IMG/VR virus record: IMGVR_UViG_3300027859_000074
Span: 1-25,101 of that record
Direction: 5' to 3' (one strand)
Source: a virus
DNA: 25,101 nt
Positions 1,841-25,101 of this stretch are shown piece by piece. The translations under genes were made by a program, and so were the position numbers. Positions within the stretch are counted from its first letter, which is position 1, and each line of letters opens with the position of its first letter. Below the pieces are notes generated by a model. It did not search any database. It was not told the DNA's origin and worked only from the letters and a program-made list of their open reading frames with translations.

Positions 1841-1863
1841 CAATTAAATCAATACCTACGTTA

Positions 1864-1871
1864 TATTTATG
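1864..1871 (-). promoter_or_regulatory. Candidate late promoter (CATAAATA)
   Basis: The minus strand reads CATAAATA, one base from the T4 late consensus TATAAATA and fitting the NATAAATA form described for T4-like cyanophages. It sits in the short gap after the 123-residue gene and 23 nt before the ATG at 1840. It would drive the Gly/Asn protein, the 48-residue ORF and gp17. Spacing to the start codon agrees with the other candidates in this window. Confidence 0.6.
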
Positions 1872-1876
1872 GTTTA

Positions 1877-2248: not shown

Positions 2249-2252
2249 GATA

Positions 2253-2585
2253 TTAATTAGCGGTTTCTAAAAGACTGAGTATTATCTTAAGAGTACTATT
2301 TGCACTTGCTTCAATAGTTACAGAATCATTTGTTTCCAAAACTAATTTACCACTCATAGGAACAAATGCATCATTAGTAGGAACATTAGCACCTTTAATA
2401 ATTTCTGTTTGAGTGCTAGATCTTTTATGCGTCATAGTTACTGTTGAGTTAGTATCACCATAATTTGTAATATGGGCATATAGCACAATAGCGGTATAAC
2501 CAGTAGGAGCAGTGTAAATTGTCTGCTGACTGGTTGTAACTTCGTGTGTAACCGTTTGAAATCTATTGAGTGCTAACTGAGCCAT
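2253..2585 (-). CDS. Small beta-rich virion-type protein, 110 residues
   Basis: A 110-residue protein starting with ATG one base after the stop codon of the 1158-residue gene, so the two are almost certainly co-transcribed and perhaps translationally coupled. The sequence is mainly predicted beta strand (TIYTAPTGYTAIVLYAHITN, STVTMTHKR, GKLVLETNDSVTIEA, TLKIILSLLE), with an N-terminal MAQLALNRFQTVTHEV lead-in. The overall form suits a small jelly-roll or Ig-like capsid or tail accessory protein. Its C-terminal strand resembles that of the following 123-residue protein (STLKIILSLLET against TTFKVIFTALET), so the two may be distant paralogues. I do not recognise a named family. Confidence 0.85.
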   Translation of the reverse strand: MAQLALNRFQTVTHEVTTSQQTIYTAPTGYTAIVLYAHITNYGDTNSTVTMTHKRSSTQTEIIKGANVPTNDAFVPMSGKLVLETNDSVTIEASANSTLKIILSLLETAN

Positions 2586-2586
2586 A

Positions 2587-5500: not shown

Positions 5501-6063
5501 TCATAGTATCTAACTTCAGGAACTTCTGGAATACTATTTCTAACTTCTTCTACTAATGCAGTAATATTGTTTAATTCATCGTCATAAAGAATTGGTTCAG
5601 GAATAACAGGTATTTCTGAACGAACTCTTTCAATATTCTCTTTTAGAGATGATAGATTATTGTATAAATCAGTTGGGTCAAATTGTTCAGGTATACTCTC
5701 TTCTACTTCTGTTATTTCGGCACGTAAAACATTAATATGCCCTTCATAACTAACCTGTTCGGGTATATTATCAATCCTTTCTTTTAACTCTTCAATTCTA
5801 CCAAAAACCTCTGAAAGGTCTGTTTTCTCAGGAATTGATTTAGATAATTTTTTTAGATCTTCTCTTATCTTTGCAAGAGGATTTGGTTTTGCTTTAGGTT
5901 TTACTTCTTCAACTATTTCTACTACTTCTTCTTCCTCACCAAAAAATTCCTTTGGTGCAGAAACTTTTTTATTTGCTAATTCCTGTTCTTCTTTTAATTT
6001 TTTGCGAGCTAATTCTTCGTCTTTTTTTCGCTCAAAAAAATCTGATGGTTTATTTAGAGACAC
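2587..6063 (-). CDS. Large fibre-like virion protein: coiled-coil repeats, beta-helix and beta modules
   Basis: An 1158-residue protein. Its start is the GTG at 6063: the codon two triplets upstream in frame is TAA and no ATG lies between. Residues 10-70 are highly charged helix. Residues 77-312 carry proline-initiated helical repeats (IPxVPExxYYDxxI), locked at 27 residues from 124 onward. A further coiled coil runs to about 360, then Gly-rich linkers (SFGGGGIGDAPYDGQ, GGGGGAG). From about 465 there are fibre-type repeats (LYVSGDAEFTGNVSVGG). Residues 600-815 resemble a right-handed beta-helix (LYVAKDGDDDNNGTS, NPIEVPAFVSIVGDDQ), a fold used in phage tailspikes. Shared beta modules occupy about 840-1030. 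The N-terminus probably anchors the protein and the helix and C-terminus project. It lies between gp16 and gp17. Adhesin, whisker-like or tailspike roles are all possible. Confidence 0.85.
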   Translation of the reverse strand: MSLNKPSDFFERKKDEELARKKLKEEQELANKKVSAPKEFFGEEEEVVEIVEEVKPKAKPNPLAKIREDLKKLSKSIPEKTDLSEVFGRIEELKERIDNIPEQVSYEGHINVLRAEITEVEESIPEQFDPTDLYNNLSSLKENIERVRSEIPVIPEPILYDDELNNITALVEEVRNSIPEVPEVRYYEKELNLIIDSIEEVREEIPVIPEIKYYDEQISGIEKGIELIEKSISKLPKVKYYDKQIKEILESVKEVRSEIPEVPEVKYYDEEIKGLEEKISLVEGSIPIVPEVKSYDEEIKGINKEIRGLYNKYTSIRIPDQEQYISEAKNLYSSFEKKNIKLQKKIDHLEEVFSKFNEEVLIENTLSIPPDEDNSDPLTPLDQKFVTYEKLQENYRLFVNRVQQQLASFGGGGIGDAPYDGQAYVRKNYKWVLSSAAGGGGGAGLWQSDSVGINTTSNIGVGADAVAGKRLYVSGDAEFTGNVSVGGTLTYEDVKNVDSIGVITARQDVRVGQNLSVVGLTTLGSANGIGTVHVGLGNTALYVDGDARVVGVLTVGRSSITLDGNSNIINVGIVTISNTTVNIGENVRINAIASGINSAPNVLYVAKDGDDDNNGTSIDNAKLTIKAAVGIAQSGTTVKVLSGRYQESNPIEVPAFVSIVGDDQRAVTVTPINNTSDIFHVRKASKLANMTFTGHLAPSAAVAFPTTEIAENVGGGKWKGPYIQNCTSDTTTGTGLYVDGDQARSLSSMNVDSYTQYNQGGVGVAITNSGFAQLVSLFTICTNEAVTCDKGGQADIANSNCSFGTFGLVSRGVSDLQYVGIVTTTSLVSTAEVTVNVSTPTLNISNFVYDNLSGIATVTTSAAHGFQVGMGVTLSSILLSCPSGQKTYPEKKPFVFDVDSIPSTTSFVVNVGISTIVHTYVSGGTVKIDVDRPYDGQLVFFDKLYKAVNTIAVGSGGTGYTATPSITVDAPAGPNGETATAFATLEGDSVASITIISSGSQYETTPSITISAPEVGSNTATGTANMEDLYYTINSSTPVTAGITTLSLATNLLNSVGVGSTTFFSQGSRIVASSHTFEYVGSGNQIVTATPKRGGVTNQENEVITLDGGKVLYTSTDQAGNFRIGDDLQINQETGTISGRSFSKSLFSEMTPFILALS
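5128..5694 (-). repeat. Tandem 81-nt (27-residue) coiled-coil repeats
   Basis: IP-initiated units begin at residues 124, 151, 178, 205, 232, 259 and 286 of the 1158-residue protein, an exact 27-residue period. Two shorter units of 23 and 24 residues precede them. The unit reads approximately IPxVPExxYYDxxIxxIxxxIxxVRxE. The unit at 232 departs most, with ISKLPK. The last unit decays after about residue 312 into an ordinary coiled coil. Confidence 0.88.
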
Positions 6064-7548: not shown

Positions 7549-7556
7549 TTATTTAG
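7549..7556 (-). promoter_or_regulatory. Candidate late promoter (CTAAATAA) overlapping the gp14 stop codon
   Basis: The minus strand reads ACTCCCTAAATAATA. The TAA stop of gp14 forms the middle of CTAAATA, a C-variant of the T4-type late promoter. The motif ends 19 nt before the gp15 ATG, with an AGGA ribosome-binding site between. The same CTCCCTAAATAATA string recurs in front of gp13. Confidence 0.58.
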
Positions 7557-8986
7557 GGAGTACCAAATGGGTTCTGTTCAGTAAAGTCTAATATCTTATC
7601 TGCTTCTAATTCTATATTAGTATTATCGGCAAATCCATCATCAGTAGGTTCTTCATCTACAATGCGTAATGCATGTGATGCCTTAGATACAGATCCAACT
7701 ATATTTTCTCCAATACTAAATGCACCAGAGATTGAAGATACCTCTAAAATATTTGTTATAGAGTCCCAAGTTCTAACTCTTCCTGTAGCACCACTTACTG
7801 AACCTGTTACGGTTTCATTGAATATGTAATTACCTGAAGAATCTAATGAAGGATTAGATATTGTTATATTTGGTATCTGAGTATAACCAGCACCAGCATT
7901 GGTGATATTAATAGCAGTAATACTACCTCCAGAACTCAAGACTGCGTGTGCTGTAGCAGTAGTTCCAACTCCTGCTGGACCTGCTATCGTAACAGTTGGG
8001 GAGGTTGTAAATCCACCACCACCTGATGTTACAGTGATAACTCCCACTAATCCATTACCAATATATGCAGTTGCTGCTGCACCTGCTCCACCACCTCCAG
8101 TAACTTGTACAAGAGGTGCGACAGTATATCCAGAACCTGGATTAACTAAATCTATGTTTTGAATAGATTTAGCATTTGCATTTACATTTAAATTGCATAC
8201 CTGAATACCACCAATCATCCTTGTAGTGGCAATACCAGTTACTCCACCTGAAGGTGCTGAAGAGAATCCTATAGTAGGACTGTGGAGGTATCCACCGCCC
8301 CTGTCAGTGATTTGTACGAATCTTATACCACCAGTAGATATAATACTTGTTTCTGCTGCTGCAGTCGATCCTGTGCCGACTAGAGTGAATGTTTGAGTTG
8401 GTCCTAAGATAGTTGGAATACCATCCTCTGTAATCCCATCAGCATTATCTCCAGTTAACTCATCATCAATCTCAGCAATGCCAGTATCAATAACTTCATC
8501 TCCATAACGGAAGAGTTCACATCTCAATTCATAAACATATGTTTTTTGAAGTTGATAGAAAGGTTTTTCGTGTTCAACAAACTTAATCTCAAATAATCTA
8601 TCACCTAATGGAAAATAGATTAAATCACCTTCTTTTGGTCTAGTGGATAATTTTACATCTGCCTCATTCTTCATCAAAGGTGAGATATAATCTTCAAATC
8701 TTTCCTTAGAAATAGTAAGAGTTATTTCGTTTGTTGCTTCAATACCAAACTTGGTTAGAAGAACTGGATTCTCTCCATATCCATCAAAAGTATCTACATA
8801 TGCCTCTAAAGGATATGCGTCATCAAATTTAGATTGTACTACTTCCCTTATTATTTTATTTTCTTCAACATATTTTCTGGGCATATAATGTACTTCAACA
8901 CCATACATCCTCAACTGTTCGTTGATTAAATCCTGAACTAAATTCTGTTCAGATCTTGCTCCTTGTTGAAAAAAGGGATTGAGCAC
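7553..8986 (-). CDS. gp14: Neck protein gp14 with a large beta-rich insertion
   Basis: A 477-residue relative of T4 gp14 (256 residues), the neck/connector protein that closes the filled head and links it to the tail. Conserved blocks are MYGVEVHYMPRKYV (T4 MRGVECYYVPREYV), AYVDTFDGY (T4 AYLNSFEGY), RPKEGDLIYFPLGDRLFEI (T4 KEGDLIYFPMDNSLFEI) and PFYQL, all within residues 1-165. The end, FTEQNPFGTP, resembles the T4 ending with SSPFDNDF. Between them, residues about 200-445 are an insertion with four GGxGY-type beta repeats (near 229, 284, 322 and 364) and a TGSVSGATG module near 394. The start is GTG at 8986, which is forced because an in-frame TAG lies three triplets upstream. It begins 4 nt after the gp13 stop, with AGG upstream, so the two neck proteins are probably coupled. 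Confidence 0.94.
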   Translation of the reverse strand: MLNPFFQQGARSEQNLVQDLINEQLRMYGVEVHYMPRKYVEENKIIREVVQSKFDDAYPLEAYVDTFDGYGENPVLLTKFGIEATNEITLTISKERFEDYISPLMKNEADVKLSTRPKEGDLIYFPLGDRLFEIKFVEHEKPFYQLQKTYVYELRCELFRYGDEVIDTGIAEIDDELTGDNADGITEDGIPTILGPTQTFTLVGTGSTAAAETSIISTGGIRFVQITDRGGGYLHSPTIGFSSAPSGGVTGIATTRMIGGIQVCNLNVNANAKSIQNIDLVNPGSGYTVAPLVQVTGGGGAGAAATAYIGNGLVGVITVTSGGGGFTTSPTVTIAGPAGVGTTATAHAVLSSGGSITAINITNAGAGYTQIPNITISNPSLDSSGNYIFNETVTGSVSGATGRVRTWDSITNILEVSSISGAFSIGENIVGSVSKASHALRIVDEEPTDDGFADNTNIELEADKILDFTEQNPFGTP

Positions 8987-10244: not shown

Positions 10245-10455
10245 TGTAGACTAACTCCTTAAGTAAAGATTTGATTTCGTTCATTTCATTTTTTAAATTA
10301 GCGAGATCCTCTTCCATATTTGTTACTTTATCGTTTTCTTTTGCTTTTACTTTACGACGTGTCACATATCTTTCATAATCTGAAGCATTAGTGTTAATAA
10401 TAGCATTTGATTTGGGATCTCGTTTGAGATCCGCATTACCTTCTACGTTAATCAT
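10234..10455 (-). CDS. Small coiled-coil protein, 73 residues
   Basis: A 73-residue protein. Residues 1-42 are polar, with conserved-looking DPKSNAIINTNASDYERYVT followed by RRKVKAK. Residues 46-70 (NMEEDLANLKNEMNEIKSLL and onward) form a leucine/isoleucine heptad coiled coil. No transmembrane segment or signal is seen. Its ATG overlaps the TGA stop of the 2470-residue gene as ATGA, a typical coupling arrangement, and its end overlaps the 128-residue gene by 11 nt. Expression is thus tied to the large tail protein. A role as a small assembly or bridging factor for the tail protein is possible but not shown. The family is not identified by name. Confidence 0.87.
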   Translation of the reverse strand: MINVEGNADLKRDPKSNAIINTNASDYERYVTRRKVKAKENDKVTNMEEDLANLKNEMNEIKSLLKELVYNVK

Positions 10456-13400
10456 GCTAATGCCATCACTCTCAATCTTCTTGCACGAGGTACATGTACC
10501 TGTGATGTTGAAGTCATCACGAGTTTAATTCTATAATACCTATATGAAGGTAATTCATCTGCAGTAAATGTATATTCAACATAATCAAGATCTTTAGCAT
10601 CTTGTCCATAACCATTTGATTTTGTAATAAAATCGTCTGTCGAACCATCATTATTTGCAGAGTCAATAACTTCTCCATTCTTGTTCAAGTTTGCATATCC
10701 AGGGAATGGAACAAACACAGGATCAATTCCTGGTTGAGCATTGACTGCATAGAATGCTCTAATGTCTGTATTAACATTAATATGAGCATCTAATATTATC
10801 TTCAAGGAAGATGCAGAATTTTCCAATTCCATTTCTTTGGAGATGTATTGACACGCATTAGGATCATTATCAATAGTCTTTACTTGTGCGTTAGTAGCGT
10901 AACTTGTTACTGGATTATTAATTCTATTAGAAGTTAATATTGCACTAATCCTTTGACCATCAATTACAGGACTCACCCAACTGTTAGTTGTATTGAGTGT
11001 AAACTTCATATTCAAAGACTTATTACCAGGAAGAGTTGTTAACTTATTGTCTGCATTTACTTTTGAAGCAATCAATCTTGGTGTATTTAAGTAATTGCTT
11101 TCATTCGGAACTACAGCATCAAAACCAGTATCAAGGAATGATATTTCATTACCACCCAAACTAGTTCCTGTAACAGTTCTTACATTAGCAGTAATGCTTG
11201 TCTGTGGAAGAGTTACATTAGATACTAGAGGTGTAATAATTTCAAAAGGAACATTTTGAGTTGCAGTTATCTTAGAACCACCAGCAGATTTTGAATTGTT
11301 AAAGAATAGTTGTGGGAATCCAACATCATTACTTCTGTCATCATTTGTATCCTTATATTTCTTGGACATATCCAATTTAACATTGTAGGAATCAAATTTA
11401 ATCTCATCAACTACATCATGCGTAGTATTAAGTCTCCATAAACCAACTCCATCCAATTCATACTTATAAACTGGAGTTCCAACTGGATAATCAACTGAAG
11501 TTGAACCTCTTACAATATTTCCACCAATTGTATTACCTGAAGTATTTGTATACTCGATAATTTCATCACCTATTCTTAGAAGTCCAACGTTAGTAGTTCC
11601 TACACCTACATTCTCATAGTTGGTAAAGATACCAGCATTTTCAACTGATATTGCTGCTGTAGATCCTACAGGATAAGCAGTAGCAAGTTTTGTAGGAATA
11701 GAATCTGATTCTATCTTTGCTAATGTTACTTTATTGTCAGTAGAATACATTCCATGATTCTTATGATTGACATTGATGGTTAATCCATCATTTACAGAAA
11801 CAATAGAACCTATCTGAACATCTCCTCCGTTTGCATTATTCAATACTGTAGTAATACCAGCATTGTTAATGAAACTCAAAGTATTTGCTGAACCTACAAC
11901 AAAGTTGCCTTCAACATTGTCGAGAATTAATTCAGAAGTGCTGCCAATAGATGTAACAGTCATCTTAGCATTTCTTCCTATAGAATTAGCACCAATAGTT
12001 GCTATTCCTACAACATCACCTATTTGATATCCAGTACCACCGTTAGAGATAGTTGCACCAGATGCAACGATTGATCCTCCATTGATAGTAATGTTTGCAG
12101 TTGCATTTCTACCATTACCAGTAAGAGTTACTAAGTTGACTCCAGTAAAGGTTAATTGACCAGATGCTGGAGTATAACCTAAACCTGCATTGGTTATATT
12201 AAGACCACCTGCAGTTCCAGCAGAACCAACATAATCACCAGTTGCCTGAGTTCCACCTTGAACAACAGTATTGCCTAATAAGAAGTCTGTGTCACCAACT
12301 GTTGTACCAAGACCAACTCTGACTTGTCTAGAATTGATTTCTAGAGAATCTGGCATTAGTTGAGCAATTTGTCCGTTTCCTATATCTAATTGTGGGTTAT
12401 AAGTATCAAATGAACCACTTTCTATAAAGTCTGCTCTATAAAGAGTAAACTTAAGGTCTTCCCACTGACTTGGTTCCCATGTAGAAGCATTTTGAGATTT
12501 AAACAAACTTCCAAGTATTGGTTGATTAGAAACAAAGGTTTGATTAGTTACATCATTTTCACCAACTCTGGAAATATAAACACTATATTTTGCTGAATTA
12601 GATAGCATTACCATTGCATATTCTCTACCTGCTTCAAGATAAACAGGTGCATCAAATTGGAAAGTAGTAGACTGAGTAGCATCAGTAGATAATACTACTT
12701 CATCAGGATCTAATGATACCTCTGATAATGGAACTATAGTTTGTGTAGGTACTCCATTCTCCATAGTTCTGATAGAGAATATAACGGGAACACCCATGTC
12801 ATCTTTTGTTCTGAAGAAAACATCACATCTAGTTAAGAATACACCTTCAGGATTATCGATTATAAACGATTGTGCTAATGGGTCACCACCTCTTTGCCAT
12901 TGAGCAGTCAATACATCTTGAGTTGTAACACCTAGAGTTGCAGTTATGCTGTCTTCTGCTGTTACTTCATTAATAGTGACTGTAGCATTTCTAGTCGAAA
13001 TAATATCTTCTCTTACTGTATCAAGACTACCTTGTGCCATGTAATCTTGTTCTGCACTCGTAGTAGCATCTTGAGCATTGCCAGCATCACTTGATAATCT
13101 AAACAAAGATCTACCAGTTGCAAAACTAGGGAAAGTATTATTGTTTGGATTAGGAATAAAGAAAGAACCCAATAAAGAACCTGATAGTGAAGAAATCAAA
13201 CGTACACTACTAATAGTTGCTTGAGCACCACTAGATTGACCTGTAAGAAGCATTCCAGAAGCAACCCACCCATAGAAGTCAGTTTGACTTATATCCGCTA
13301 ATCCAGCAACATCTACGTTCAATAAAGTTGATGAAGATGTATATGTTGTAGGAATTGAACCTGATGTATATGGGTCTTCTGCATAGGTTCTTGAAGGAAC

Positions 13401-16400
13401 ATTAAATGCACCAGTTCTATGATTAGGATTTGCAACCCTAAATTGAATATAAGCAGAAGAACTATTTCTATTTGAACCAGAGTTCATTCTTCCAATTACA
13501 GTTTCTCCAACTTGGAATGCTCCTGATGACATGCTTATTTGCAATAACTTAGGAACACAGAAACGTGATACTTCTCTGCCAGCAAAGAAGGCATATACTC
13601 TAGTTAATGGTTTAATACCTTGAGCAGTAAACTGAACATTCCTTGACCTTACAAAAGTAATAAGTTCTCTACTTACTACTCTATCACCAAGAGAAACATC
13701 ATCTCTGGTTTCTGTTACTAGAACTTCTCTACCAGATCTTTGTCTACGTTGATCTTGTAAAGTTGCTGTGGATTCCCTTCTAAATCTTTGCTGTGTCCTA
13801 CCTAGAGATCTACCCCATGTGCTAACAGATGTTTCTTGTCTAGTATCTCCAGCCCATGTTACTCTCCAAGAATCCCACGCAGTATTAACAAATCCAATCT
13901 GAGGGTCTCTTCCTAAAATTTGACGTGCTCTTGCTACTTGTGATGAGAAATTACCTTCTACGATTGTTCTTGCTTGTATTCTGACAGTATCTGTCCAAGT
14001 ATCTGATTGTGGTGTTAATGATAAAATGCCATTCCAGAAAGGAACAATAAATGGTGTTACACTAACTGACCTAGTTGCAAATTCTTGCTTAAACCATTCA
14101 ACTTCAGCATAATCTAGAGTGACGATACCATTATTACGTCTAACATTAACTCCTTCAATTTGAGCAGTAGTAGGATCTTGTGTTGCATCAACATTAACTA
14201 CAGGACCAAACATAAGGTCAACTGAAGTTGTATAATGGCTTGGTCTCAATTCCTTGTTCTTTGTATCAATACTGTTCTTGATAAAACGCTCATCTTGAGA
14301 CAAGAAGTTCTCAAAATTATCAACAAAGAATCCAGACTTAAATCTGTTCAATCCATTTGCATCAGAAACAAAGAAGTTTTGAGTATTTGTTTCTAATAAA
14401 GATAATGCAGTATAATATTCTAAATTACTAATTCTTTGTTCCAATCTTCTAATATCACTCATTGTATAACGAATGTATTCTAGAGAAGTAATTGAAACAT
14501 CATCATCAATATTGCAAAGATATGGTGCAAGACTGATAGTAGCAAGTTCTATAGAATCATCAACTTTCGCTGGTTTTTGTGGTTGTGGTGAAGGTAATCC
14601 TGTTACTAATTGTACCCTTCCACTCTTAGTCAAACAAACAACATCTACTCTACCCACATAATGAGAGAATGTAGTTAAAATATTCTCATCAGATGCTAAA
14701 ATACTATTTGAAGAATTACCAGAAGAATCAAAATTCCTTCCTTTGAATTCTAATGGAGATCTAGAACCTTCAGTAACAGTATATTCATTAACTCTTGGTC
14801 TAATATCAATTACATCACTATTTTTGATATTTTCATAATATGGTATTTCATTGCAATAATCAAAGGACTCATATGAATCTATAGTTGTTATGTCACCAGT
14901 ATCATTGGTATCATAATAGGCACTTAAGAAATAAATTTTAATTTGCTTAGAAGGTGCTTTTACATCCTCATTCTTAGTAATAAATCCCTGATTGTATTGA
15001 GTAGTTTCTTGTCCAGTAGAGAAACTATAATTATCTGTTATGTCAAAACTAGATTCGACTATAGTTGTTATAATTGCCGATACATTTGATTCAGAAGAAG
15101 AAATACTCTCTCCTTCTGTAAATTGACCATCATTTTTATAGATAAACTCAATTTGAGATGGTGTAACAATACTTGCTACAATAGCAACTGCACCACTGGT
15201 TTGTCCCGTAATTTTTTCACCTACAACATATTCTGCAGTAGTATTTGATGGACTTGTAATAGTGTTAAGAGTTGCTTTTGGTGCTGCTGGTGCATTAGTA
15301 TCCCCAGACTCAAATACAGCATGTAGATCAATTACATCAGGAGTATTGAGAGAAATAACCTCATCTTCTACTCTTGTACCAAAAGGATAATTGCCATGAG
15401 TTAGACCATTATTTAATGTTGTTGTTCCTATACCAGAACCAACAAGAATAGACTTATCAACAACAATAGAATTAACTCTATTTCTTATTTTAGTTTTTGA
15501 TGTTGGTTTTACTTTTGTTAATGTGGTTATAAGAGTTGCATTAGTTGTATCAGAACCCAAATTACCAATTTGTAAGGTTTTGCCACCATTAGTAAAGATA
15601 AACTTATCTGCACTTAATGTTTCGGTTGCCCCATCAGTTCTCTGTAAGGAATATCTTTCTTCATCGAATGGTAAGTATGACTCATTATCACCAGCATTTA
15701 CTAAACTAGTTTTATTACCTGAGATACTAACATTATATGTTTTTCTAATTGTAATCGATGCATTTGTTAAATCAACATCTGATATGTACTGATTAGGAAG
15801 TTCAGTAAACAAACTATTGTCAGATGAACTTTGCAACTCTGTAGTTAAGACTTTAAAGTCAGTTACCTCTCTAACAGAAGTTGGCAAACTTCCATTTACT
15901 ATACCATCAACATCAGCAACGTTTGTGATTGTTATGGTGTTTGTACCAATTGCAGTAACCTTACCATAAGTAGGATCATTTGATTTAGCAGAATTGCTAA
16001 ATTGAACGAGATTATTTACTTTTACTAAAGTACCAGGAAATCTTTCATTAGGACTTGTAACTGTACTGAATCCACCAGAGGAAGCACTAATAGTAGCAAT
16101 ACCAATATTAGATGAAGTTGATTGAATTACATCAGCATTAAAGATAGATGATAATCCAACAGTACCTGAATATGGTGTAGCACCAACATCTCTGGTACTA
16201 AATATGGATTTTACGTCTTCAATACCATGAGCAGTTACTGCTATTGCAATCTTCCCACTTAAGATACCATTGACAATTATTGGTTCATTTTTAATAAAAT
16301 CACCCGAAGTTTCATATACTTCTAAACTAGCATTATCTGTGATAGGATTAAATAAGAATCCTGTTGCACCACTATTAGCACCTTTTATGTGAGTTGGTGT

Positions 16401-17864
16401 AGTAAGTGTGCTTTGTTGGTTTAGAGTAATCTGAGTAGTTGTTTGTACATCATATAGAGAAATATCCCACTCATTCAATACTGAATTATTATTATAGGTT
16501 CCACCTTCTAATGCAAAATCATATATTCTAGCAACACCTATCTCATTACCACCAGCAGTAGTATTTCCTGCACCGATTCTACTATCTCTCAAACTAACAA
16601 TAGTATTATTTGCTGTACTTATTCCTGGTGAACCAAAAACTCTATTTAATTTTAATGTTGGACCAGTATTATAAATTATAGACTCATCTTCTATAGTAAA
16701 AGAAGTACGTGGTTTAGGTGCATCAACAAGAGTAGGACGTACTTTTCTAACCTCATATCCCTTTACAAATGCTGTACCCTCAGAAACTTTATATACAATT
16801 TTATCTTCTGCTGGAATATCTCCACCTGCAGTAAATTCTTCAATGTCATATAATCCGTTATTGCCTTCATTATCGTTTAATGAATCAAGAACAGAAACAT
16901 CAAATGCTCCTAATGTATAGTTTCCAGACTCATCAAATGTTCTTTTTGCTAAAGCCTCTGTTAATTCTTTTTGAAACGGACTTGATGCAATTTTACCAGG
17001 TATCCTTAATACCCCATTTTCAACAGTTCCTAATTCTACAAAATTAGAATCTTCAAAATCATCTAATGATTTCTTAAATAAAGATGCTGTAATCTTTAAT
17101 CTATCTGCTCCTGGTGCAGCAAAGTTATTATATCCCTGTGAATTATCATTTAAAGTTTCATCTAAATCAGATGTAATTATTTCTTCATTTACATTTAAAC
17201 CAATTCTGTAGTTTGGAGTATTAGAATATTGATCTAATATTAATGTCTCATCATCAACATTAACAAAATTCCCATGAATGAAATATACACCATTCTGAAT
17301 AGAGAATGATGATCCTACAATAGCAGACCCTGATTGTAGTGTAGACGCAAATGGAGTATTAGCAGCAATCGAACTATTACCAAGTAAACCAGAAGTAATA
17401 TCGGTATTACAAACTAATTCTTCACCATCACTAAAAGATTCAGTTGAATTATTGACTGTACTTGAACTCAAATAATTTACATAAAGAGTTAAATTGCCAT
17501 TATCCGAATTTGTAGGTAACAATACTTCAGTAACATATGCAGTTACTCCAGAAGTTTGTCCCGTAATTTTTGTACCAACTAATTGATCCGCATATGCAGA
17601 TACAGGAACACCTTGATAAGTATTACTTAATTGCAATCCTGTATATTGCCTTTGATAGGTTGTATTGCCAGGAATTACTTTAGCACCATCTTTAAAGAAG
17701 TGCTGACCAAACTTTTCAATCTGGTTTTGTAATATTGATTGAAGTCCTGTTAACTCTCTTGCTTGGACTGGGAATCCAGGCTTAAACAATACCTTATGAA
17801 AATCATCAGAAGGATCAAAGTCGTCGAAATACGGAGCAACGTTTAGATTAGTTTGTTGTGGCAT
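10452..17864 (-). CDS. Giant DUF4815-type tail/baseplate structural protein, 2470 residues
   Basis: The N-terminus (PYFDDFDPSDDFHKVLFKPG, then QARELTGLQSILQNQIEKFG) matches my memory of DUF4815, a domain of phage tail proteins common in T4-like cyanophages. A module with KITGQTSG follows near residue 100 and recurs near 493, 885 and 1543. An arginine-rich stretch lies near 1330-1410, followed by TRVYAFFAGREVSRFCVP. Residues about 1665-1815 (QSFIIDNPEGVFLTRCDVFF, then PVYLEAGREYAMVML) form another beta domain. GGxGY repeats lie near 1891 and 1943, and a gp15-like RG module at about 2060-2135. The C-terminus ends RRLRVMALA. It follows gp8, in the place where T4 has gp9 to gp12, and is probably a baseplate-periphery or long tail protein. 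The exact T4 equivalence is unknown. AAGGAA lies about 13 nt before the ATG. Confidence 0.9.
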   Translation of the reverse strand: MPQQTNLNVAPYFDDFDPSDDFHKVLFKPGFPVQARELTGLQSILQNQIEKFGQHFFKDGAKVIPGNTTYQRQYTGLQLSNTYQGVPVSAYADQLVGTKITGQTSGVTAYVTEVLLPTNSDNGNLTLYVNYLSSSTVNNSTESFSDGEELVCNTDITSGLLGNSSIAANTPFASTLQSGSAIVGSSFSIQNGVYFIHGNFVNVDDETLILDQYSNTPNYRIGLNVNEEIITSDLDETLNDNSQGYNNFAAPGADRLKITASLFKKSLDDFEDSNFVELGTVENGVLRIPGKIASSPFQKELTEALAKRTFDESGNYTLGAFDVSVLDSLNDNEGNNGLYDIEEFTAGGDIPAEDKIVYKVSEGTAFVKGYEVRKVRPTLVDAPKPRTSFTIEDESIIYNTGPTLKLNRVFGSPGISTANNTIVSLRDSRIGAGNTTAGGNEIGVARIYDFALEGGTYNNNSVLNEWDISLYDVQTTTQITLNQQSTLTTPTHIKGANSGATGFLFNPITDNASLEVYETSGDFIKNEPIIVNGILSGKIAIAVTAHGIEDVKSIFSTRDVGATPYSGTVGLSSIFNADVIQSTSSNIGIATISASSGGFSTVTSPNERFPGTLVKVNNLVQFSNSAKSNDPTYGKVTAIGTNTITITNVADVDGIVNGSLPTSVREVTDFKVLTTELQSSSDNSLFTELPNQYISDVDLTNASITIRKTYNVSISGNKTSLVNAGDNESYLPFDEERYSLQRTDGATETLSADKFIFTNGGKTLQIGNLGSDTTNATLITTLTKVKPTSKTKIRNRVNSIVVDKSILVGSGIGTTTLNNGLTHGNYPFGTRVEDEVISLNTPDVIDLHAVFESGDTNAPAAPKATLNTITSPSNTTAEYVVGEKITGQTSGAVAIVASIVTPSQIEFIYKNDGQFTEGESISSSESNVSAIITTIVESSFDITDNYSFSTGQETTQYNQGFITKNEDVKAPSKQIKIYFLSAYYDTNDTGDITTIDSYESFDYCNEIPYYENIKNSDVIDIRPRVNEYTVTEGSRSPLEFKGRNFDSSGNSSNSILASDENILTTFSHYVGRVDVVCLTKSGRVQLVTGLPSPQPQKPAKVDDSIELATISLAPYLCNIDDDVSITSLEYIRYTMSDIRRLEQRISNLEYYTALSLLETNTQNFFVSDANGLNRFKSGFFVDNFENFLSQDERFIKNSIDTKNKELRPSHYTTSVDLMFGPVVNVDATQDPTTAQIEGVNVRRNNGIVTLDYAEVEWFKQEFATRSVSVTPFIVPFWNGILSLTPQSDTWTDTVRIQARTIVEGNFSSQVARARQILGRDPQIGFVNTAWDSWRVTWAGDTRQETSVSTWGRSLGRTQQRFRRESTATLQDQRRQRSGREVLVTETRDDVSLGDRVVSRELITFVRSRNVQFTAQGIKPLTRVYAFFAGREVSRFCVPKLLQISMSSGAFQVGETVIGRMNSGSNRNSSSAYIQFRVANPNHRTGAFNVPSRTYAEDPYTSGSIPTTYTSSSTLLNVDVAGLADISQTDFYGWVASGMLLTGQSSGAQATISSVRLISSLSGSLLGSFFIPNPNNNTFPSFATGRSLFRLSSDAGNAQDATTSAEQDYMAQGSLDTVREDIISTRNATVTINEVTAEDSITATLGVTTQDVLTAQWQRGGDPLAQSFIIDNPEGVFLTRCDVFFRTKDDMGVPVIFSIRTMENGVPTQTIVPLSEVSLDPDEVVLSTDATQSTTFQFDAPVYLEAGREYAMVMLSNSAKYSVYISRVGENDVTNQTFVSNQPILGSLFKSQNASTWEPSQWEDLKFTLYRADFIESGSFDTYNPQLDIGNGQIAQLMPDSLEINSRQVRVGLGTTVGDTDFLLGNTVVQGGTQATGDYVGSAGTAGGLNITNAGLGYTPASGQLTFTGVNLVTLTGNGRNATANITINGGSIVASGATISNGGTGYQIGDVVGIATIGANSIGRNAKMTVTSIGSTSELILDNVEGNFVVGSANTLSFINNAGITTVLNNANGGDVQIGSIVSVNDGLTINVNHKNHGMYSTDNKVTLAKIESDSIPTKLATAYPVGSTAAISVENAGIFTNYENVGVGTTNVGLLRIGDEIIEYTNTSGNTIGGNIVRGSTSVDYPVGTPVYKYELDGVGLWRLNTTHDVVDEIKFDSYNVKLDMSKKYKDTNDDRSNDVGFPQLFFNNSKSAGGSKITATQNVPFEIITPLVSNVTLPQTSITANVRTVTGTSLGGNEISFLDTGFDAVVPNESNYLNTPRLIASKVNADNKLTTLPGNKSLNMKFTLNTTNSWVSPVIDGQRISAILTSNRINNPVTSYATNAQVKTIDNDPNACQYISKEMELENSASSLKIILDAHINVNTDIRAFYAVNAQPGIDPVFVPFPGYANLNKNGEVIDSANNDGSTDDFITKSNGYGQDAKDLDYVEYTFTADELPSYRYYRIKLVMTSTSQVHVPRARRLRVMALA

Positions 17865-17880
17865 AATTCGTTATTATTCC

Positions 17881-19431
17881 TTAGAATTGCAAAATGACTT
17901 TAATGTCTTCTTTTTGGTTGGATGATCTAGTAATAGAAGGTCTATTATCAACATAAATTATATTTCCTGTGTATTTTTCAACTTCAGGACTGCCAATACC
18001 ATTCGTAAAAGTTTGACCCAAGTAATATGTTTTATTATTTATTACGGTACTGATACCGCTAAATGATGAATCAATGCTGAGATTAGACACTGATGCATGA
18101 CTAATATCTAAACTTCCAGGTGCTGTTGGATTACTTGAGAACTGAACTAACTCATATCCGTATGTTGGGTCAGTTTGTGCTGTTCCAACTGTATTGAATC
18201 CTGCAAGAGTTCTATCTTGCCAGAACTTTAACACTCCAGTAGTCTGGTCATAACTAACCACTCTACCCACTGCAGTAGATCCTGCAGCAACTGTTTGTGT
18301 AAATTCACCATCCATAGTAAATACTGCACTACTATAACCAACACCAGTTATTTTTAATGCAGACAAAGCACTTGCTTTATCAGCAACTAGTAGTGAAGAT
18401 GGTGTTGCTTTTGGATTTTCTACAATTCCAATCCTAGCAAACTCATTTCCTGTTACAAAATCAGGATTCTCTGTATCATTTTCAATTCTAGAATATAAAA
18501 GAACATTGTATGCACCAAGTTCTCTATAGATATCAGCACCATGTCCTCCTTCAGGAGAAATGACAACATCAAGACTTGGTGAGGTAGTTCCAGCAGGAAC
18601 TCCACCAGCAGCTAAATCAACATTGGCATAAGTGTATCCTGAACCTTGACTAGAAACAACTACAGAATCAACTGTCTGGTCATTGTTGATAACCACTGTA
18701 CATTCAGCACCAGTGCCATTACCTCTGATAGGAACTCTAGTATAAGTTCTATTTGCAGTACCAATACCAACTCCACGGTTATTAATGGTTACAATTTTAA
18801 CTGAACCATCAACAGCATTATTACGAACAGGTGCATTATCCGAAGAAGTTGCCCAATCTGTAGGTACAGGAATAAAATTAGTCGAATCAAACTTTATAAT
18901 GTCACTTGGTTTAATCGTATACAAATACTTCCAGATATATCCATCACCACTTGTTCCTGCTGACCTTGGTTCTAAATCAATAAATGTAGGTTCATCTAAA
19001 GAAGATTTACCATTTGGCGTTTCTGGTGTTGTACCATTTTGAAGGCACTCATAAACTCTGTATTCTGAATTAAGAACATAATATGTGGCATTATATAAAT
19101 TAGTCGCACCTGAAACTTTAGCAGTGTTTGTTCTGCTATAGTCAGCACGGTACATATCATAAACTGTACCTGATGTCCATAGGCGTTTTGGAATTACTTG
19201 TCTAGTGTCAGACGCAGTAATCTTTTTCAACGCAATCATATCATCCCAATATTTGTTCTCTTCATTAAAACTATCTTTAGGTGCAGGAGGATTTTTCTCC
19301 CAATCAGATTGGTAATCAGTTGGATTGGGTAATCCAATGAATGAATAGTAAGAATTTGCACTTGAAGATACTCCAGCAACGAAGTTCTTTGCGTTTAATA
19401 TTCTAATCTGATCAGTTATAATCGCAGACAT
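17881..19431 (-). CDS. gp8: Baseplate wedge protein gp8, enlarged
   Basis: A 516-residue relative of T4 gp8 (334 residues), a baseplate wedge subunit. Matches by eye include VIPKRLW (T4 VIPRRDW) near 79-85, YRVYECLQNG (T4 YRCLD) near 124-133, GDGYIWKYLYTIKPSD (T4 GDGYVWEYLFEIPPD) near 162-177, NFIPVP (T4 EYIVVP), and the ending VDNRPSITRSSNQKEDIKVI (T4 MENRPPIIMAMDQTEEINIL). The extra length is mostly central: residues about 213-290 contain GGxGY-like beta repeats (SQGSGYTYANV), and 381-416 a short module resembling the TGQTSG family. It would join the baseplate wedge and help trigger sheath contraction on host contact. A late-promoter candidate lies in the gap before it. The 2470-residue gene starts 16 nt after its stop. 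Confidence 0.93.
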   Translation of the reverse strand: MSAIITDQIRILNAKNFVAGVSSSANSYYSFIGLPNPTDYQSDWEKNPPAPKDSFNEENKYWDDMIALKKITASDTRQVIPKRLWTSGTVYDMYRADYSRTNTAKVSGATNLYNATYYVLNSEYRVYECLQNGTTPETPNGKSSLDEPTFIDLEPRSAGTSGDGYIWKYLYTIKPSDIIKFDSTNFIPVPTDWATSSDNAPVRNNAVDGSVKIVTINNRGVGIGTANRTYTRVPIRGNGTGAECTVVINNDQTVDSVVVSSQGSGYTYANVDLAAGGVPAGTTSPSLDVVISPEGGHGADIYRELGAYNVLLYSRIENDTENPDFVTGNEFARIGIVENPKATPSSLLVADKASALSALKITGVGYSSAVFTMDGEFTQTVAAGSTAVGRVVSYDQTTGVLKFWQDRTLAGFNTVGTAQTDPTYGYELVQFSSNPTAPGSLDISHASVSNLSIDSSFSGISTVINNKTYYLGQTFTNGIGSPEVEKYTGNIIYVDNRPSITRSSNQKEDIKVILQF

Positions 19432-19462: not shown

Positions 19463-20986
19463 TTATATAGATGGGTATATTGTCAATGTTCCAGCCATTG
19501 CTGAGTGGTTTTGACAAACATAATAAAGAGTGTTTGGTGCATTAAAAGGAATCTGGAATTTTATTGTTCCAACAGCAGCACCAGGATTGGTAACACCAGT
19601 TTCATATTGAGTTCCAGCATCATAAGCACCAGAAGTAGTTTGTATTCTAAATGGGTGACCACTTGCATTAAGAACAAACTCATATGTTTGTCCTCTTGCA
19701 AGATAGAGTGTAGGATCCTCTGCAGCACTCAAATTACCTGGACCAGTAAAGGTATAGTGACTAGAACCACTATTAGCAACTGCCCACTGTGATGTAACAA
19801 GATCGTTGCCATGACCACTAAATGAAGTAGCACTAGCAATACCAGTCGTCAGTGTTCCCTGATTTGTAGTCTCGAATTTTTTGGTTCCATTAAATGTCAG
19901 TTCTACCTGATTATCAAGAGTATATCTAAATCCATATTCATAATTAGTACCATCATCAGATGAACCACCTATTTCTATAGTTCCACCTTGATATGATTGA
20001 ATTCTGTTACCTGATCCAAGATGTCTTATTCTTAGATTTTGTGGAGCATCTCCAACATCCAATTGAGTAGCAGTAGCAACACCAGTTACGATAGTTCCAT
20101 CATTATTCACTTCTAATCTTGTATTAGAACCATTTCTTAGTAAAATCTTATTATCATTTTGAACTATTAAGTCCTGACCATTACGTCCAACAACACCAAA
20201 AGTAGTGGCAGCACCGTAACCAGAACCACCAAAATAATGGTAAGTGCCATCCCAATTTTGTGTATTGGATACTGTGCTCATTCCAGTAGTAACAACTAAA
20301 GATTTCGTGCTTACGAATTCTGTGCTACCACCACCAACTCCAGTTAATCCTGAACCATCGCCAACAAAAGAAGTAGCAGTTAATATTCCAGTTACAGTTG
20401 CATTAGTTCTTATATCTACTCCATTAGTGCTATTAAGGTAGACCATATCACCAGAACTGGTTCCAGTAGCGGTAATATTAGTTCTCATAGCACTACTAAG
20501 ATTCATACTATAATCGGAGTAGATAGCTGCTGCTGAACCATATGCACCCCAACCAAAACCAATTCTCAAATTATCTGGTCCTGCACTTCCCCATCTAATT
20601 ACATCACCATTACCTGCACCATTAACAAAGTGAATTTCATTCTCATCTATTAAACTTATCTTGTTGCCACTATCAACAACTACGTTACCTGTGATAGATG
20701 TTACTCCAAGAGTAGAAATACCAGAAACATTTAAAGAACCAGTATTTACATGAGATGTACCTGCTGAACCCGTAATTGTTACTTGTCCAGTTCCACCAGA
20801 AACACTTATATTATCTCCAGCAACAATAGAAGTAACAATACCAGGTGCTAGGTTGGTAGTCGAACCTGCTCCTAGTAAAGTATAAAGTTCATCAAAATTA
20901 CTATTGACTCTTGCAGCACCAACTAACAGACTACTACCTGTGCCGTCGTCTGGTGCTGCCCCCGTTGATATTCCTAACTTTGCCAT
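19463..20986 (-). CDS. Tail fibre protein with C-terminal cupredoxin-like domain
   Basis: A 507-residue protein. The N-terminus (LGISTGAAPDDGTGSSLLVG, then AARVNSNFDELYTLLG) is the attachment region common to cyanophage tail fibres. The shaft holds repeated short beta motifs typical of trimeric fibres, such as LNVSGISTLGVTSITGNV and TATSFVGDGSGLTGV. Residues about 403-507 form a separate domain: HYTFTGPGNL, PTLYLARGQTYEF, SGHPFRI, FQIPFNAPNTLYYVCQNHSA and MAGTLTIYP. His444, Cys491, His494 and Met497 are placed like the type 1 copper ligands of cupredoxins, and C-x2-H-x2-M matches amicyanin spacing. The shaft probably trimerises, displaying three such domains at the distal end. It sits directly upstream of gp8. 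Fibre identity is fairly secure; copper binding is inferred. Confidence 0.88.
   Translation of the reverse strand: MAKLGISTGAAPDDGTGSSLLVGAARVNSNFDELYTLLGAGSTTNLAPGIVTSIVAGDNISVSGGTGQVTITGSAGTSHVNTGSLNVSGISTLGVTSITGNVVVDSGNKISLIDENEIHFVNGAGNGDVIRWGSAGPDNLRIGFGWGAYGSAAAIYSDYSMNLSSAMRTNITATGTSSGDMVYLNSTNGVDIRTNATVTGILTATSFVGDGSGLTGVGGGSTEFVSTKSLVVTTGMSTVSNTQNWDGTYHYFGGSGYGAATTFGVVGRNGQDLIVQNDNKILLRNGSNTRLEVNNDGTIVTGVATATQLDVGDAPQNLRIRHLGSGNRIQSYQGGTIEIGGSSDDGTNYEYGFRYTLDNQVELTFNGTKKFETTNQGTLTTGIASATSFSGHGNDLVTSQWAVANSGSSHYTFTGPGNLSAAEDPTLYLARGQTYEFVLNASGHPFRIQTTSGAYDAGTQYETGVTNPGAAVGTIKFQIPFNAPNTLYYVCQNHSAMAGTLTIYPSI
19466..19777 (-). other. Cupredoxin-like domain (fibre C-terminus)
   Basis: This is the region for residues 403-506 of the 507-residue fibre. 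Its start, PTLYLARGQTYEF, fits the first strands of a cupredoxin sandwich. HPFRI supplies the first His, and the C-terminal loop YYVCQNHSAMAG supplies Cys, His and Met. All four type 1 copper ligand types are retained in the right order. Known family features are established; metal occupancy here is inference. Confidence 0.7.
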
Positions 20987-21009: not shown

Positions 21010-21016
21010 TATTTAG
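21010..21016 (-). promoter_or_regulatory. Candidate late promoter (CTAAATA) overlapping an upstream stop codon
   Basis: The minus strand reads ATTATCTAAATACTTTT. The TAA stop of the large upstream protein (21013-21015) lies inside CTAAATA. The motif ends 23 nt before the fibre ATG at 20986. This is the third such stop/promoter overlap in the window. Confidence 0.55.
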
Positions 21017-24000
21017 ATAATATAATTAGAGGACTTCAAAGGAATTGTCCGTTGTACTAATGGCCAAGTGGAGATTCCACTTATACCATCATTTGGATAA
21101 ACCTCAAACTGATTAGTTTCAGATCTACCTGTAAGAGTAATCTTACCCCAACTATAATTACCAAAGTAATTAGAAGCAGTTATGATTCCTGCAAATCCAC
21201 TTCCTGTTCCTTCACCATCATCATCAAAGGTATAGAACTCAGAAGAGAAGTCAATACCAGTGGTTCCAAAGGTAACCGTTGAAAGACCACTTATATTTGC
21301 ATAAACTCTTCTTACAACAGTCATTCCCACACCAACTACATTTCTAGTAACATTACTTACTGCACTTACTTGGTATATGTTATCAATAAATTGAGTTCCT
21401 ACACCAATTATATTGTTATCAGTATCCTTAGAAGTTATAGATGTTGTGGCACTTCCTGCATTAGATGCGAAGACCATGAAGTAATCTTGAAGATCAAGAG
21501 AACTAATAGTAATCGCAGTTCCAACTAATTTTGTTTGTCTTAAATCAGAATATGTTGGAATGTATAGATCCATAATCATCTTATCAACGGTACTTTGTGT
21601 TGTAGTACCGAATCCAACAACAACACCATAGTCACCAATATAGGAGTCAACATCATTAGTCTCAGAAACCAAAGTAGGAGGTTCGATGAGAACTTGAGGA
21701 CTTTCACTATAATTTGTACCACCAAATGATACCGTTACACCTATAACTGAACCACCACTAATCTGTGCTGTTGCAGTTGCAGTAGAACCAAATCCAACAG
21801 CGTTAGAAATGACTACATTTGGTACTGAATCATATCCAGTTCCTCCACCAACAACAGAGATAGAACTAATAGTTCCTCCAGTAGATACAACAGATGTAGC
21901 AGTAGCACCTGTTTTTACTACTTGAGATGTTAAAGTAACTTGATCTTGGAATGTAAGACCAACATCACTCTCATTTTGAGAATCAAATATAGGTCTTACA
22001 TTATCAACATAGAGTTGAGTTGAAGTTACTCCAACCGCCTTAATAATATTTGCTGCAGGAATAACACGAGGTTCGTATAATCCTCTATCCTTAGAAACTT
22101 CTTTTCCATTAAGAATCATATCTTCTGTCTGCCTAGTCAAAATAACTGGTTTAGTTTGATTAGGATCAGCAGTGATACCTGGACCATAATAAGGAATAGT
22201 ATCTACGTTATTTGTAGACTTAATTAATGTAACTGTTCTTGGGTCTTCTTGTAGATAAGATGGAGTAGGAGCATATGCACTTGGAGTTAAAGTATCACCA
22301 ACTTCAACAGGTTCTATAACATCTCTAAATTTAACATCCTGATCACCACTACCCTTGTAGAAGATTATCTTACAAGTATCTTTTGCTTTAGGTGCTTCAG
22401 TAAATGTAAGAGTACTTCCACCCTCAAACTTAAATCCTTCACCAGGAACCTGAAGAACATCATTAACAAAGATTAGAAGAGTATCTTCAATATTAATAGG
22501 AGAACCTTTGCTTGCCCTTATAGAAACAACTACTCCTCCCTGACTTAATGGGAAGGTTAGTCTATTTCCATCAAATAAGTATGCAACATCATCTAAGTCT
22601 TGCAATTGACCTACAGACCAACCAGTAAACTCATCAGTAAATATTTCATCTATTGTTAATTGGAATTCGTGATAAGATGAAGTTGTAGGTATTCCTGTGG
22701 TTCCACCGATAGCTACAGTTAAGATTTCTCCATTACCATATCCATAACCAGTATTTCTAAGAGTAAAGTCCGTAACACTTGAACCCCGACCAACTGCTAT
22801 ATCAATAGTTGCATTAGAACCCACTCCAGATACAGAAGATGAACTGTATATTAAAGGAATATTTGAATAACCAAGTGGTGAGTCAAAAACAACTTCCATT
22901 GGCATCGTAACGCTTCCACCTCTAGCATAAAGATGTGATGTTGTGGATATACCAACGTTTACTGCAAATCTAGTAGAATCCAATACTTCAATAACATCTG
23001 TTCCTTCTGCAGCAGGATCAGTTGCTCTTGGAGTCATTAATGACCTTTGAACTGTTCCTCCTGACTGGTAGAATGTAGGAACTGTTGAAACACCCACATT
23101 AGTTTCAAATTTTTGAACAGAAATAATCTTAGTAACTACAGAACCAGAATAATATGGGTCAGTTGTTCTTGGATATACATGAGTAGATGAACCACCATCT
23201 AATCCACATGTCATTGCGATTCCAGTAAAGATTACATCCTTTCCTACAGATAAAGCATGAGCAGTGGTAGTAGTTACTGTTGCTATACCAGTAACATTAT
23301 CATAAACAAAGTTGGATAGATTTCTTGGAGCAGAACTTGAATATGTGCAAGTAAATGCTATTCCTGATACCAATACTTCACTACCTACATTCAATCCATG
23401 AGCAGCAGAAGTAGTTACAACCAACTCTCCAGTAGAATTGTTATATGCTGCATTATCAACAACTCTTGGGGCACAGAAGACCTGAGAGTTAGTAACTGCA
23501 ACACCAACAATATTGCCATTTGAAATTGATGCTGTTCCGATAGAAACAATATTGACACCTGTTAGACTTTCGGTTTGTATGCCAACATTAACTGTTGTTT
23601 GAATACCAGATATGTAACCAGAACCACTGTTACCAATAGAGACTAATGAGATTGTTCCTGCTGCAGATACTACTGCTGTTCCTCCAGCAGCGACTAATGG
23701 TTGATATCCAAATCCTGCAGTAGAACCTACAGAAACTATAACACCACCAACTGGAAGATTAGAAGTATTGACATCAGATGCGATTGATGATGCAGTTCCA
23801 GTAAATGATATAGTTGTAATACCTGTTGAACCAGATTCTTCTAAAGTATAATCATACTGTATTCCTGGTCCTTGGAAGACATCATTTATTAAGATAATAG
23901 CATTGTCATTTTCAATACCAGTTACAGTTCCTCCAGCAGAAGTTAGAACAAAGTCTCTTTCTGTTCCAGTAAATCCTGATGAAATATCATCAAAGATATA

Positions 24001-25101
24001 GTTACGAGCATATGTTTCTTGTGCAGTATTAGGAATACCAGAACGCATAAATGATCGTCCTTGGAAATGAGACCCTGTTGCTATTCCAACCCAGTCCCTA
24101 GAATCAGGTGGATTAGTAGTAGAACTCATTGGAAGAGTTCCATAAGGTGCTTCCACAAAGTTTAAAGTATTTTCTACAATGTTATAATTACCAATAACCT
24201 TGGTTACTACATCACCTGTACTATATCCAGCAAGAGATGTTCCTAACCATTGTCTACGTACTCTTATGGTATTTGTATTTCCAACACCAATACCTTCAAT
24301 CTTCATTATCTCATTACCAACTTTAATCAAGTCTCCACCAAAGAATGAGGTAATTCCTGCAAATTCGACAATATCACTAGTAGTGAATACTTCGTTTTCA
24401 AGATGAGTGGTTACTGCAGTAGATACAAGAGGAGATTGGATAATGTTGTCTAGTGTTACAAGTACTTTTGAATTTTGATTCGTAGAAACAAATCTATGAG
24501 ATGTACCAATACCAACACTAGTAAAGTCAACATTATTAACAACTCCCATAAGGGCATCTTTAGCAGTTGCTGCAAGTTTGATCTTATCTTCAGTAATCTT
24601 AACTGCAAATACTGATGATGGTAATTTGTCAGTAGTTCCTACACCTACAAATCCATCTGTGGATGCGATTCCAATTGCTTGAGTTGTACCAGCACCAGCA
24701 TGGATGTATTGAAGTTCCTCTCCAGTGACAAAGTAATGATTTGCCATCTGAATAGTATTCTTAGTCAAATCAACTACACTTGTGCTGCTTCCATCAAAAC
24801 TTCTATTAAAGATATCATTTGTTTGGTGCTTTAATCCAAATGCTCTCTTAATATCTCTTTCAGTACCAAAATACTCACCATACTCAGTTTGTATTGTTCC
24901 ATTCTCAAGACTTATTACATCTCTAGAATCATCTTGGATTCTTAATGCATTCATGAATACATTGACATGAGCATCAATACTAGGAAGTGGAGTATATACT
25001 AATTCAACTACAGAACCTGTTATACGGGTTCCAATGGTTCCTAGACCTGATACAGACTCAATAATACCATATTCTGCATTATAAGTATCTCCAGTGCTAG
25101 T
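21013..25101 (-). CDS. Very large modular baseplate/tail structural protein (5'-truncated by window edge)
   Basis: At least 1362 residues are encoded. The first in-window ATG (24954) is not the start: the 49 codons upstream to base 25101 are open and read like the same protein (YNAEYGIIESVSGLGTIGTR). The segment DSRDVISLENGTIQTEYGEY, then GTERDIKRAFGLKHQTNDIF, resembles large virion proteins I recall from T4-like cyanophages. Modules in order are an RG beta module (about 24200-24400), a NDVFQGPG fibre-type motif (about 23870-23910), repeated SNFVYDN/AHG units (about 23250-23450), two NVGIST-SGGTV units, a second NDVLQVPG motif (about 22450), and GGxGY repeats (about 21680-21885). No enzymatic motif is seen. 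Its place ahead of gp8 would suit a functional counterpart of T4 gp7, but that rests on position alone. Confidence 0.85.
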   Translation of the reverse strand, partial: TSTGDTYNAEYGIIESVSGLGTIGTRITGSVVELVYTPLPSIDAHVNVFMNALRIQDDSRDVISLENGTIQTEYGEYFGTERDIKRAFGLKHQTNDIFNRSFDGSSTSVVDLTKNTIQMANHYFVTGEELQYIHAGAGTTQAIGIASTDGFVGVGTTDKLPSSVFAVKITEDKIKLAATAKDALMGVVNNVDFTSVGIGTSHRFVSTNQNSKVLVTLDNIIQSPLVSTAVTTHLENEVFTTSDIVEFAGITSFFGGDLIKVGNEIMKIEGIGVGNTNTIRVRRQWLGTSLAGYSTGDVVTKVIGNYNIVENTLNFVEAPYGTLPMSSTTNPPDSRDWVGIATGSHFQGRSFMRSGIPNTAQETYARNYIFDDISSGFTGTERDFVLTSAGGTVTGIENDNAIILINDVFQGPGIQYDYTLEESGSTGITTISFTGTASSIASDVNTSNLPVGGVIVSVGSTAGFGYQPLVAAGGTAVVSAAGTISLVSIGNSGSGYISGIQTTVNVGIQTESLTGVNIVSIGTASISNGNIVGVAVTNSQVFCAPRVVDNAAYNNSTGELVVTTSAAHGLNVGSEVLVSGIAFTCTYSSSAPRNLSNFVYDNVTGIATVTTTTAHALSVGKDVIFTGIAMTCGLDGGSSTHVYPRTTDPYYSGSVVTKIISVQKFETNVGVSTVPTFYQSGGTVQRSLMTPRATDPAAEGTDVIEVLDSTRFAVNVGISTTSHLYARGGSVTMPMEVVFDSPLGYSNIPLIYSSSSVSGVGSNATIDIAVGRGSSVTDFTLRNTGYGYGNGEILTVAIGGTTGIPTTSSYHEFQLTIDEIFTDEFTGWSVGQLQDLDDVAYLFDGNRLTFPLSQGGVVVSIRASKGSPINIEDTLLIFVNDVLQVPGEGFKFEGGSTLTFTEAPKAKDTCKIIFYKGSGDQDVKFRDVIEPVEVGDTLTPSAYAPTPSYLQEDPRTVTLIKSTNNVDTIPYYGPGITADPNQTKPVILTRQTEDMILNGKEVSKDRGLYEPRVIPAANIIKAVGVTSTQLYVDNVRPIFDSQNESDVGLTFQDQVTLTSQVVKTGATATSVVSTGGTISSISVVGGGTGYDSVPNVVISNAVGFGSTATATAQISGGSVIGVTVSFGGTNYSESPQVLIEPPTLVSETNDVDSYIGDYGVVVGFGTTTQSTVDKMIMDLYIPTYSDLRQTKLVGTAITISSLDLQDYFMVFASNAGSATTSITSKDTDNNIIGVGTQFIDNIYQVSAVSNVTRNVVGVGMTVVRRVYANISGLSTVTFGTTGIDFSSEFYTFDDDGEGTGSGFAGIITASNYFGNYSWGKITLTGRSETNQFEVYPNDGISGISTWPLVQRTIPLKSSNYII

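Follow-up and report, generated by a model that had tools for sequence, protein, structure and literature searches.

Cupredoxins (rusticyanin, plastocyanin, amicyanin and pseudoazurin, together with cupredoxin domains found in nitrite reductase and in multicopper oxidases) are built on a beta sandwich, with ligands in the order His...Cys-x2-His-x2-Met. The domain described here shares with them the predicted sandwich and the ligand order, and its loop spacing is that of amicyanin; it differs from them in belonging to a virion baseplate protein rather than to a soluble electron carrier and in its very low sequence identity. In phage T4, gp10 (a wedge protein and tail pin) and gp9 resemble the protein described here over its N-terminal 45–85 residues, but neither has a counterpart to its shaft or tip. 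The cyanophage family PHROG_677 (cyanophage “gp9”, T4-GC 398) matches the protein over its full length, lies in a similar gene neighbourhood and likewise includes a cupredoxin-like C-terminal domain, at profile positions 306–411. The family differs from our protein in shaft length, and its annotation mentions no cupredoxin or metal site. Metal on an adsorption organelle has a precedent in the tip of the long tail fibre of T4, gp37, which, as cited in PMC11705849, binds iron through HxH motifs that also occur in marine phages. The ligands of gp37 and their arrangement differ from those considered here, as probably does the metal.

Cupredoxins and phage connectors are each known. In the literature searched, which lay outside the subscription journals, no description was found of a cupredoxin or blue copper domain in phage tail proteins, nor of the two joined in a baseplate protein of the virion that retains the type 1 ligands.

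The carrier protein and its place on the baseplate

The window (the whole stretch of 25,101 nucleotides that was analysed) contains a minus-strand open reading frame encoding a protein of 507 residues. The terminase of the window is nearest to those of single-cell marine virus contigs (93%), followed by those of Synechococcus phage Bellamy (85%) and Prochlorococcus phage P-TIM68 (83%). The 507-residue protein belongs to PHROG_677, “baseplate wedge tail fiber protein connector”, whose profile it matches over residues 1–506 (E 5e-48). An AlphaFold2 model of the full-length protein was uninformative (pLDDT 36, 11 sequences), and its parts are delimited as follows:

19463–20986, minus strand: baseplate-wedge pin or tail-fibre connector of 507 residues (PHROG_677 match; synteny with P-TIM68)
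20852–20986, minus strand: gp10/gp9-type wedge anchor, residues 1–45 (T4 gp10 match; Pfam T4_gp9_10_N below its cut-off)
19796–20851, minus strand: variable, repeat-like shaft, residues 46–397 (identity and length spread among relatives)
19466–19795, minus strand: predicted cupredoxin-like domain, residues 398–507, 110 residues long (AlphaFold2, Foldseek against the PDB, profile against the PDB)

The resemblance of the N-terminus to the baseplate wedge protein gp10 of T4 was found with the family profile (residues 4–85 against gp10 residues 3–86, E 1.7e-6) and with a single-sequence search (residues 4–88, E 1e-4). The match to T4 gp9 is weaker (E 0.6), and that to Pfam T4_gp9_10_N (E 3.5e-4, 21.1 bits) lies under the cut-off of 25. 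No homology to gp10 was found beyond the N-terminus, the profile alignment being confined to residues 4–85. The gene lies between an upstream gene for a gp7-type baseplate wedge protein and a downstream gene of gp8 type; the gene order in P-TIM68 is identical, and its upstream gene is annotated as a wedge initiator. The gp10-like N-terminus together with the gp7 and gp8 neighbours indicates a pin or connector anchored to the wedge rather than a classical long tail fibre, an identity that the gp10-like N-terminus rules out. The earlier note had proposed a tail fibre tipped with a cupredoxin-like domain; the tip is borne out by AlphaFold2 and Foldseek, whereas the fibre gives way to the gp10-like N-terminus and the wedge-connector label of the PHROG.

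Two observations concern the neighbouring genes. Directly downstream of gp8, at 10452–17864, lies the gene for a DUF4815 protein of 2470 residues (PHROG_358), the syntenic gene of which is named neck protein in P-TIM68. Moreover, a repeat of the type GxGYxxxPxVxIxxP seems to have been inserted into several unrelated structural proteins (21013–25101, 17881–19431, 7553–8986 and 2587–6063); the carriers of this repeat are of gp7 type, of gp8 type, a head closure protein Hc2 and a fibre-like protein, and PHROG matches overlap across them.

The two ends of the pin are better conserved than what lies between them. Among relatives, identity is 67–100% in the anchor (residues 1–45) and 68–99% in the C-terminal tip, but 28–99% in the shaft, with about 28–31% in the more distant relatives; proteins with the same two ends range from 395 to 798 residues in total length. 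This suggests that shafts are exchanged as modules among related phages. The conservation of the tip above that of the shaft argues against a fast-evolving determinant of host range and favours a general role in docking or stabilisation. In six of the loci compared (L002, L003, L005, L006, L007 and L010), anchor and tip are like those of the window protein and the shaft is of very different length.

The C-terminal domain and its putative copper site

The C-terminal domain is predicted to be a Greek-key beta sandwich of the cupredoxin type. Modelled as a monomer with AlphaFold2 (45 sequences), a check proposed in the earlier note, it gave a cupredoxin-like sandwich with a pLDDT of 94.7 and a pTM of 0.85. 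Its top match in a Foldseek search of the PDB was rusticyanin (E 2.5e-5, probability 1.00, TM 0.59), and below it came nitrite reductase, pseudoazurin, plastocyanin, laccases and further copper proteins; among the 50 best-listed matches, almost all were copper proteins of cupredoxin fold, at TM-scores that are moderate (about 0.5–0.6, with an rmsd of 5–6 Å). Two of the matches, a pseudoazurin and a nitrite reductase, are engineered proteins that carry the amicyanin loop (2ux6, 2vmj), whose Cys-x2-His-x2-Met spacing is that of the domain. The domain is C-terminal, as had been claimed earlier, and extends slightly beyond the last ~105 residues (19466–19777) first assigned to it, to residues 398–507. 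No second copy was found within the window.

At the level of sequence, a family profile of 38 members, run against PDB chains, matched rusticyanin (1.6e-4), nitrite reductase (1.9e-4), plastocyanin (0.0019) and amicyanin (0.036), as well as laccases, and in this profile the copper ligands of rusticyanin align with all four ligands of the domain. A profile in which the ligand regions were masked (17 sequences, 91 positions, hence of limited sensitivity) found no cupredoxins in the PDB, so the sequence kinship to cupredoxins rests on the ligand site itself and the fold on prediction. A single-sequence PDB search with the domain was uninformative. The window domain scores 14.9 bits against Pfam Copper-bind (PF00127), under the cut-off of 21.2; 13 of the 38 relatives match Copper-bind at E values up to 1, the best being 0.00092. 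Membership of the amicyanins proper was rejected, since the score against the NCBIfam model TIGR02657 is 14.6 bits for an equivalog cut-off of 110.2; only the loop spacing is amicyanin-like. A His-Pro at the first ligand is also found in the type 1 sites of laccases, where it belongs to an HPFHLHGH motif, but the further His residues of that motif (type 2/3 copper) are missing from the window domain.

The putative ligands lie in GHPFRIQ (His444) and CQNHSAM (Cys491, His494 and Met497), and are encoded as follows:

19655–19657, minus strand: His444 codon, putative copper ligand 1, in GHPF (invariant in 38 of 38 relatives; CAT or CAC)
19514–19516, minus strand: Cys491 codon, putative copper ligand 2 (invariant in relatives; the only Cys of the protein)
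19505–19507, minus strand: His494 codon, putative copper ligand 3 (invariant in relatives; codon usage)
19496–19498, minus strand: Met497 codon, putative axial copper ligand (invariant in relatives)

The order and spacing at residues 444, 491, 494 and 497 are compatible with a type 1 set His...Cys...His...Met. The four ligand types had been pointed out earlier, as had the amicyanin spacing and the His-Cys-His-Met order; the sequence agrees on each count. Only six columns (G35, H47, Y92, C94, H97 and M100 in domain numbering) are invariant in the 38 aligned relatives, and four of them are the ligands named beforehand. Change at the Cys and His codons is synonymous only: Cys is encoded by TGT in 22 relatives and by TGC in 16, and CAT and CAC are mixed at both His, the residues remaining constant. 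Since the IMG/VR matches (80 loci retained) were partly seeded with YYVCQNHS, conservation was rechecked on BLAST-picked phages and with a ligand-blind profile. In 14 BLAST-picked relatives (mean pairwise identity 38%), the same six columns are again the only invariant ones, the chance of four columns drawn at random from 110 all falling among them being 2.6e-6, and the ligand-blind search, described below, found all four ligands in 25 of 31 copies; homologues do not freely substitute these residues.

A chance occurrence of the motif was ruled out by the invariance of the ligands and by the number of Cys-x2-His-x2-Met motifs expected from the residue frequencies of the window, which is 0.0002 per 507 residues and 0.003 over all long minus-strand frames, against one observed. 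As Cys491 is the sole cysteine of the whole protein, an intrachain disulfide with a structural function is likewise excluded.

Distribution of the module and loss of the ligands

By tblastn, 365 phage records contain the domain, most of them from Synechococcus and Prochlorococcus phages. It stands C-terminally on gp9/gp10-like pins, but is not confined to them: it occurs in proximal tail-fibre proteins (P-SSM2, S-SCSM1), in the short-tailed phages P-GSP1 and P-SCSP2, within a giant gp7-type protein of P-HM2, and fused to annotated subtilisin-like proteases (S-H9-1; positions 1315–3321 of locus L084), to which may be added two Peptidase S8/S53 entries of BFVD found with Foldseek (A0A0E3F583 and V5URI3). 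Three proteins (L013, L014 and L017) have two copies each, every copy being followed by collagen-like GPQ repeats and retaining all of its ligands. The domain is a mobile module. For one member of the family, S-SCSM1_231, the record gives the annotation virion protein; the virion proteins of S-SCSM1 were identified through mass spectrometry (PMC9602691). At the pattern level used, no close cellular relatives of the window domain were found in 84,980 species genomes; a broader profile matched two metagenome-assembled contigs in the same set.

For the ligand-blind search, 22 whole phage records were scanned with a profile that was blind to the first His as well as to the Cys-His-Met loop, and 31 distinct copies were obtained. 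All four ligands are present in 25 of these (24 directly and one with the loop further downstream); in five, His and loop are both missing, and in one the His alone remains. The profile was built from mostly site-bearing members, so that the sample is not fully neutral. One further His-only copy was found with the unmasked profile. Fisher's test on the joint retention of His and loop gives p 3.5e-5 (relatedness not corrected for). For the most part the ligands stay or disappear together, which is what a metal site predicts.

Ligand-less copies reach the virion. In ORF 080 of P-SS2, Asp, Ala and Thr replace His, Cys and His, and the protein was found in purified particles by mass spectrometry (PMC2784084). 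The presence of such copies in virions means that the module can work without metal. The virion-detected protein encoded at positions 63255–63593 of P-SS2 (L093/L111), 112 residues long, consists almost only of the cupredoxin-like domain and has lost His, Cys and His. Ligand-less paralogous copies in the same or related phages provide natural controls.

Possible roles of the site

The reading we favour, with moderate confidence, is that the protein is a trimeric-type wedge pin of a relative of T4-like cyanophages, the copper-locked cupredoxin tip of which is reused as a docking or adhesion module. Of this reading, the analysis shows the sequence, the predicted fold, the conservation of the ligands, the modular distribution and the similarity of the anchor. 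The gp10-like N-terminus would dock the pin on the baseplate wedge, and the length-variable shaft would project from this anchor, with the cupredoxin domain as its C-terminal tip. Each domain would bind one copper ion, either during assembly or once the particle is released into seawater, and this ion would fasten the sandwich and the C-terminal loop together, so that the tip would be rigid, stable and free of disulfides. Such a tip could then be reused as a plug-in piece for docking or adhesion wherever tail proteins need a conserved end or a spacer. Invariant ligands, no other Cys and many carriers suit a domain made rigid by one bound ion, most probably copper. We infer that copper would be the metal, that it would occupy the site in the particle, that the pin would be trimeric with its tip facing outward, and that the role would be structural or one of docking rather than redox. 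The predicted site is likely to bind copper, and it might conceivably have a redox or copper-recognition role. A copper-bound tip has against it that phage tails assemble in a copper-poor cytosol.

Another explanation is a beta-sandwich adhesin or spacer that holds no metal, with packing and ancestry accounting for the retention of the four residues. The virion-borne ORF 080 of P-SS2 and the failure of the ligand-masked profile to find cupredoxins both speak for this; however, the domain otherwise changes fast and is most conserved at His, Cys, His and Met, and packing alone would not predict that these residues mostly stay or disappear together, so we consider this explanation unlikely, though it carries some weight. 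If a metal is bound, it might be zinc, iron or nickel, acting as a structural ion lock in the particle in the manner of the iron in gp37. The precedent of metal in phage tail tips and the ability of His, Cys, His and Met to bind other metals make this conceivable, but Cys-x2-His-x2-Met with an upstream His is a specific match to type 1 copper proteins, copper proteins are what the profile aligns with, and the Met is invariant too; we therefore judge another metal rather unlikely.

The site could also be an active copper site at the host surface, engaged in electron transfer, in redox sensing or with a copper-handling receptor, somewhat as in the Trojan horse idea proposed for iron in tail fibres. 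An outward tip is plausible, the ligand set is complete, the domain is widespread in cyanophages, and the hosts of these phages are copper-sensitive and use plastocyanin. Against this, we know of no receptor or partner, the tip is conserved above the shaft, unlike a typical determinant of host range, and the module also lies inside collagen-like fibres and subtilisin fusions, all of which makes a host-surface site distinctly improbable. Finally, Cys491 might be a free thiol that links the subunits of the trimer through a disulfide or forms some other covalent bond there, as the single Cys of the protein would permit; since this leaves the invariance of both His and of Met unexplained, it seems extremely improbable.

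Should copper be bound, as in the copper-locked pin that we favour, a virus group that is among the commonest in the ocean would have sites of blue-copper type on its infection apparatus, with a bearing on adsorption, on how stable virions are under sunlight and in seawater, and on the chemistry of copper near copper-sensitive picocyanobacteria. A stronger proposal, which we hold to be improbable, is that the baseplates of cyanophage particles bear several type 1 sites, loaded with copper and capable of redox chemistry, and that copper takes part in infection, perhaps as a redox trigger, through copper-dependent docking, or through recognition by a copper-handling surface protein of the host. 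Virions would then be a previously unnoticed class of oceanic copper protein and copper ligand. A family now listed only as a connector acquires a labelled site of four residues that can be tested.

A minor observation concerns the fold: Foldseek also returned matches (BFVD A0A481Z6J5 and others) to “beta-sandwich proteins” of Pithovirus- and Marseillevirus-like metagenomic viruses.
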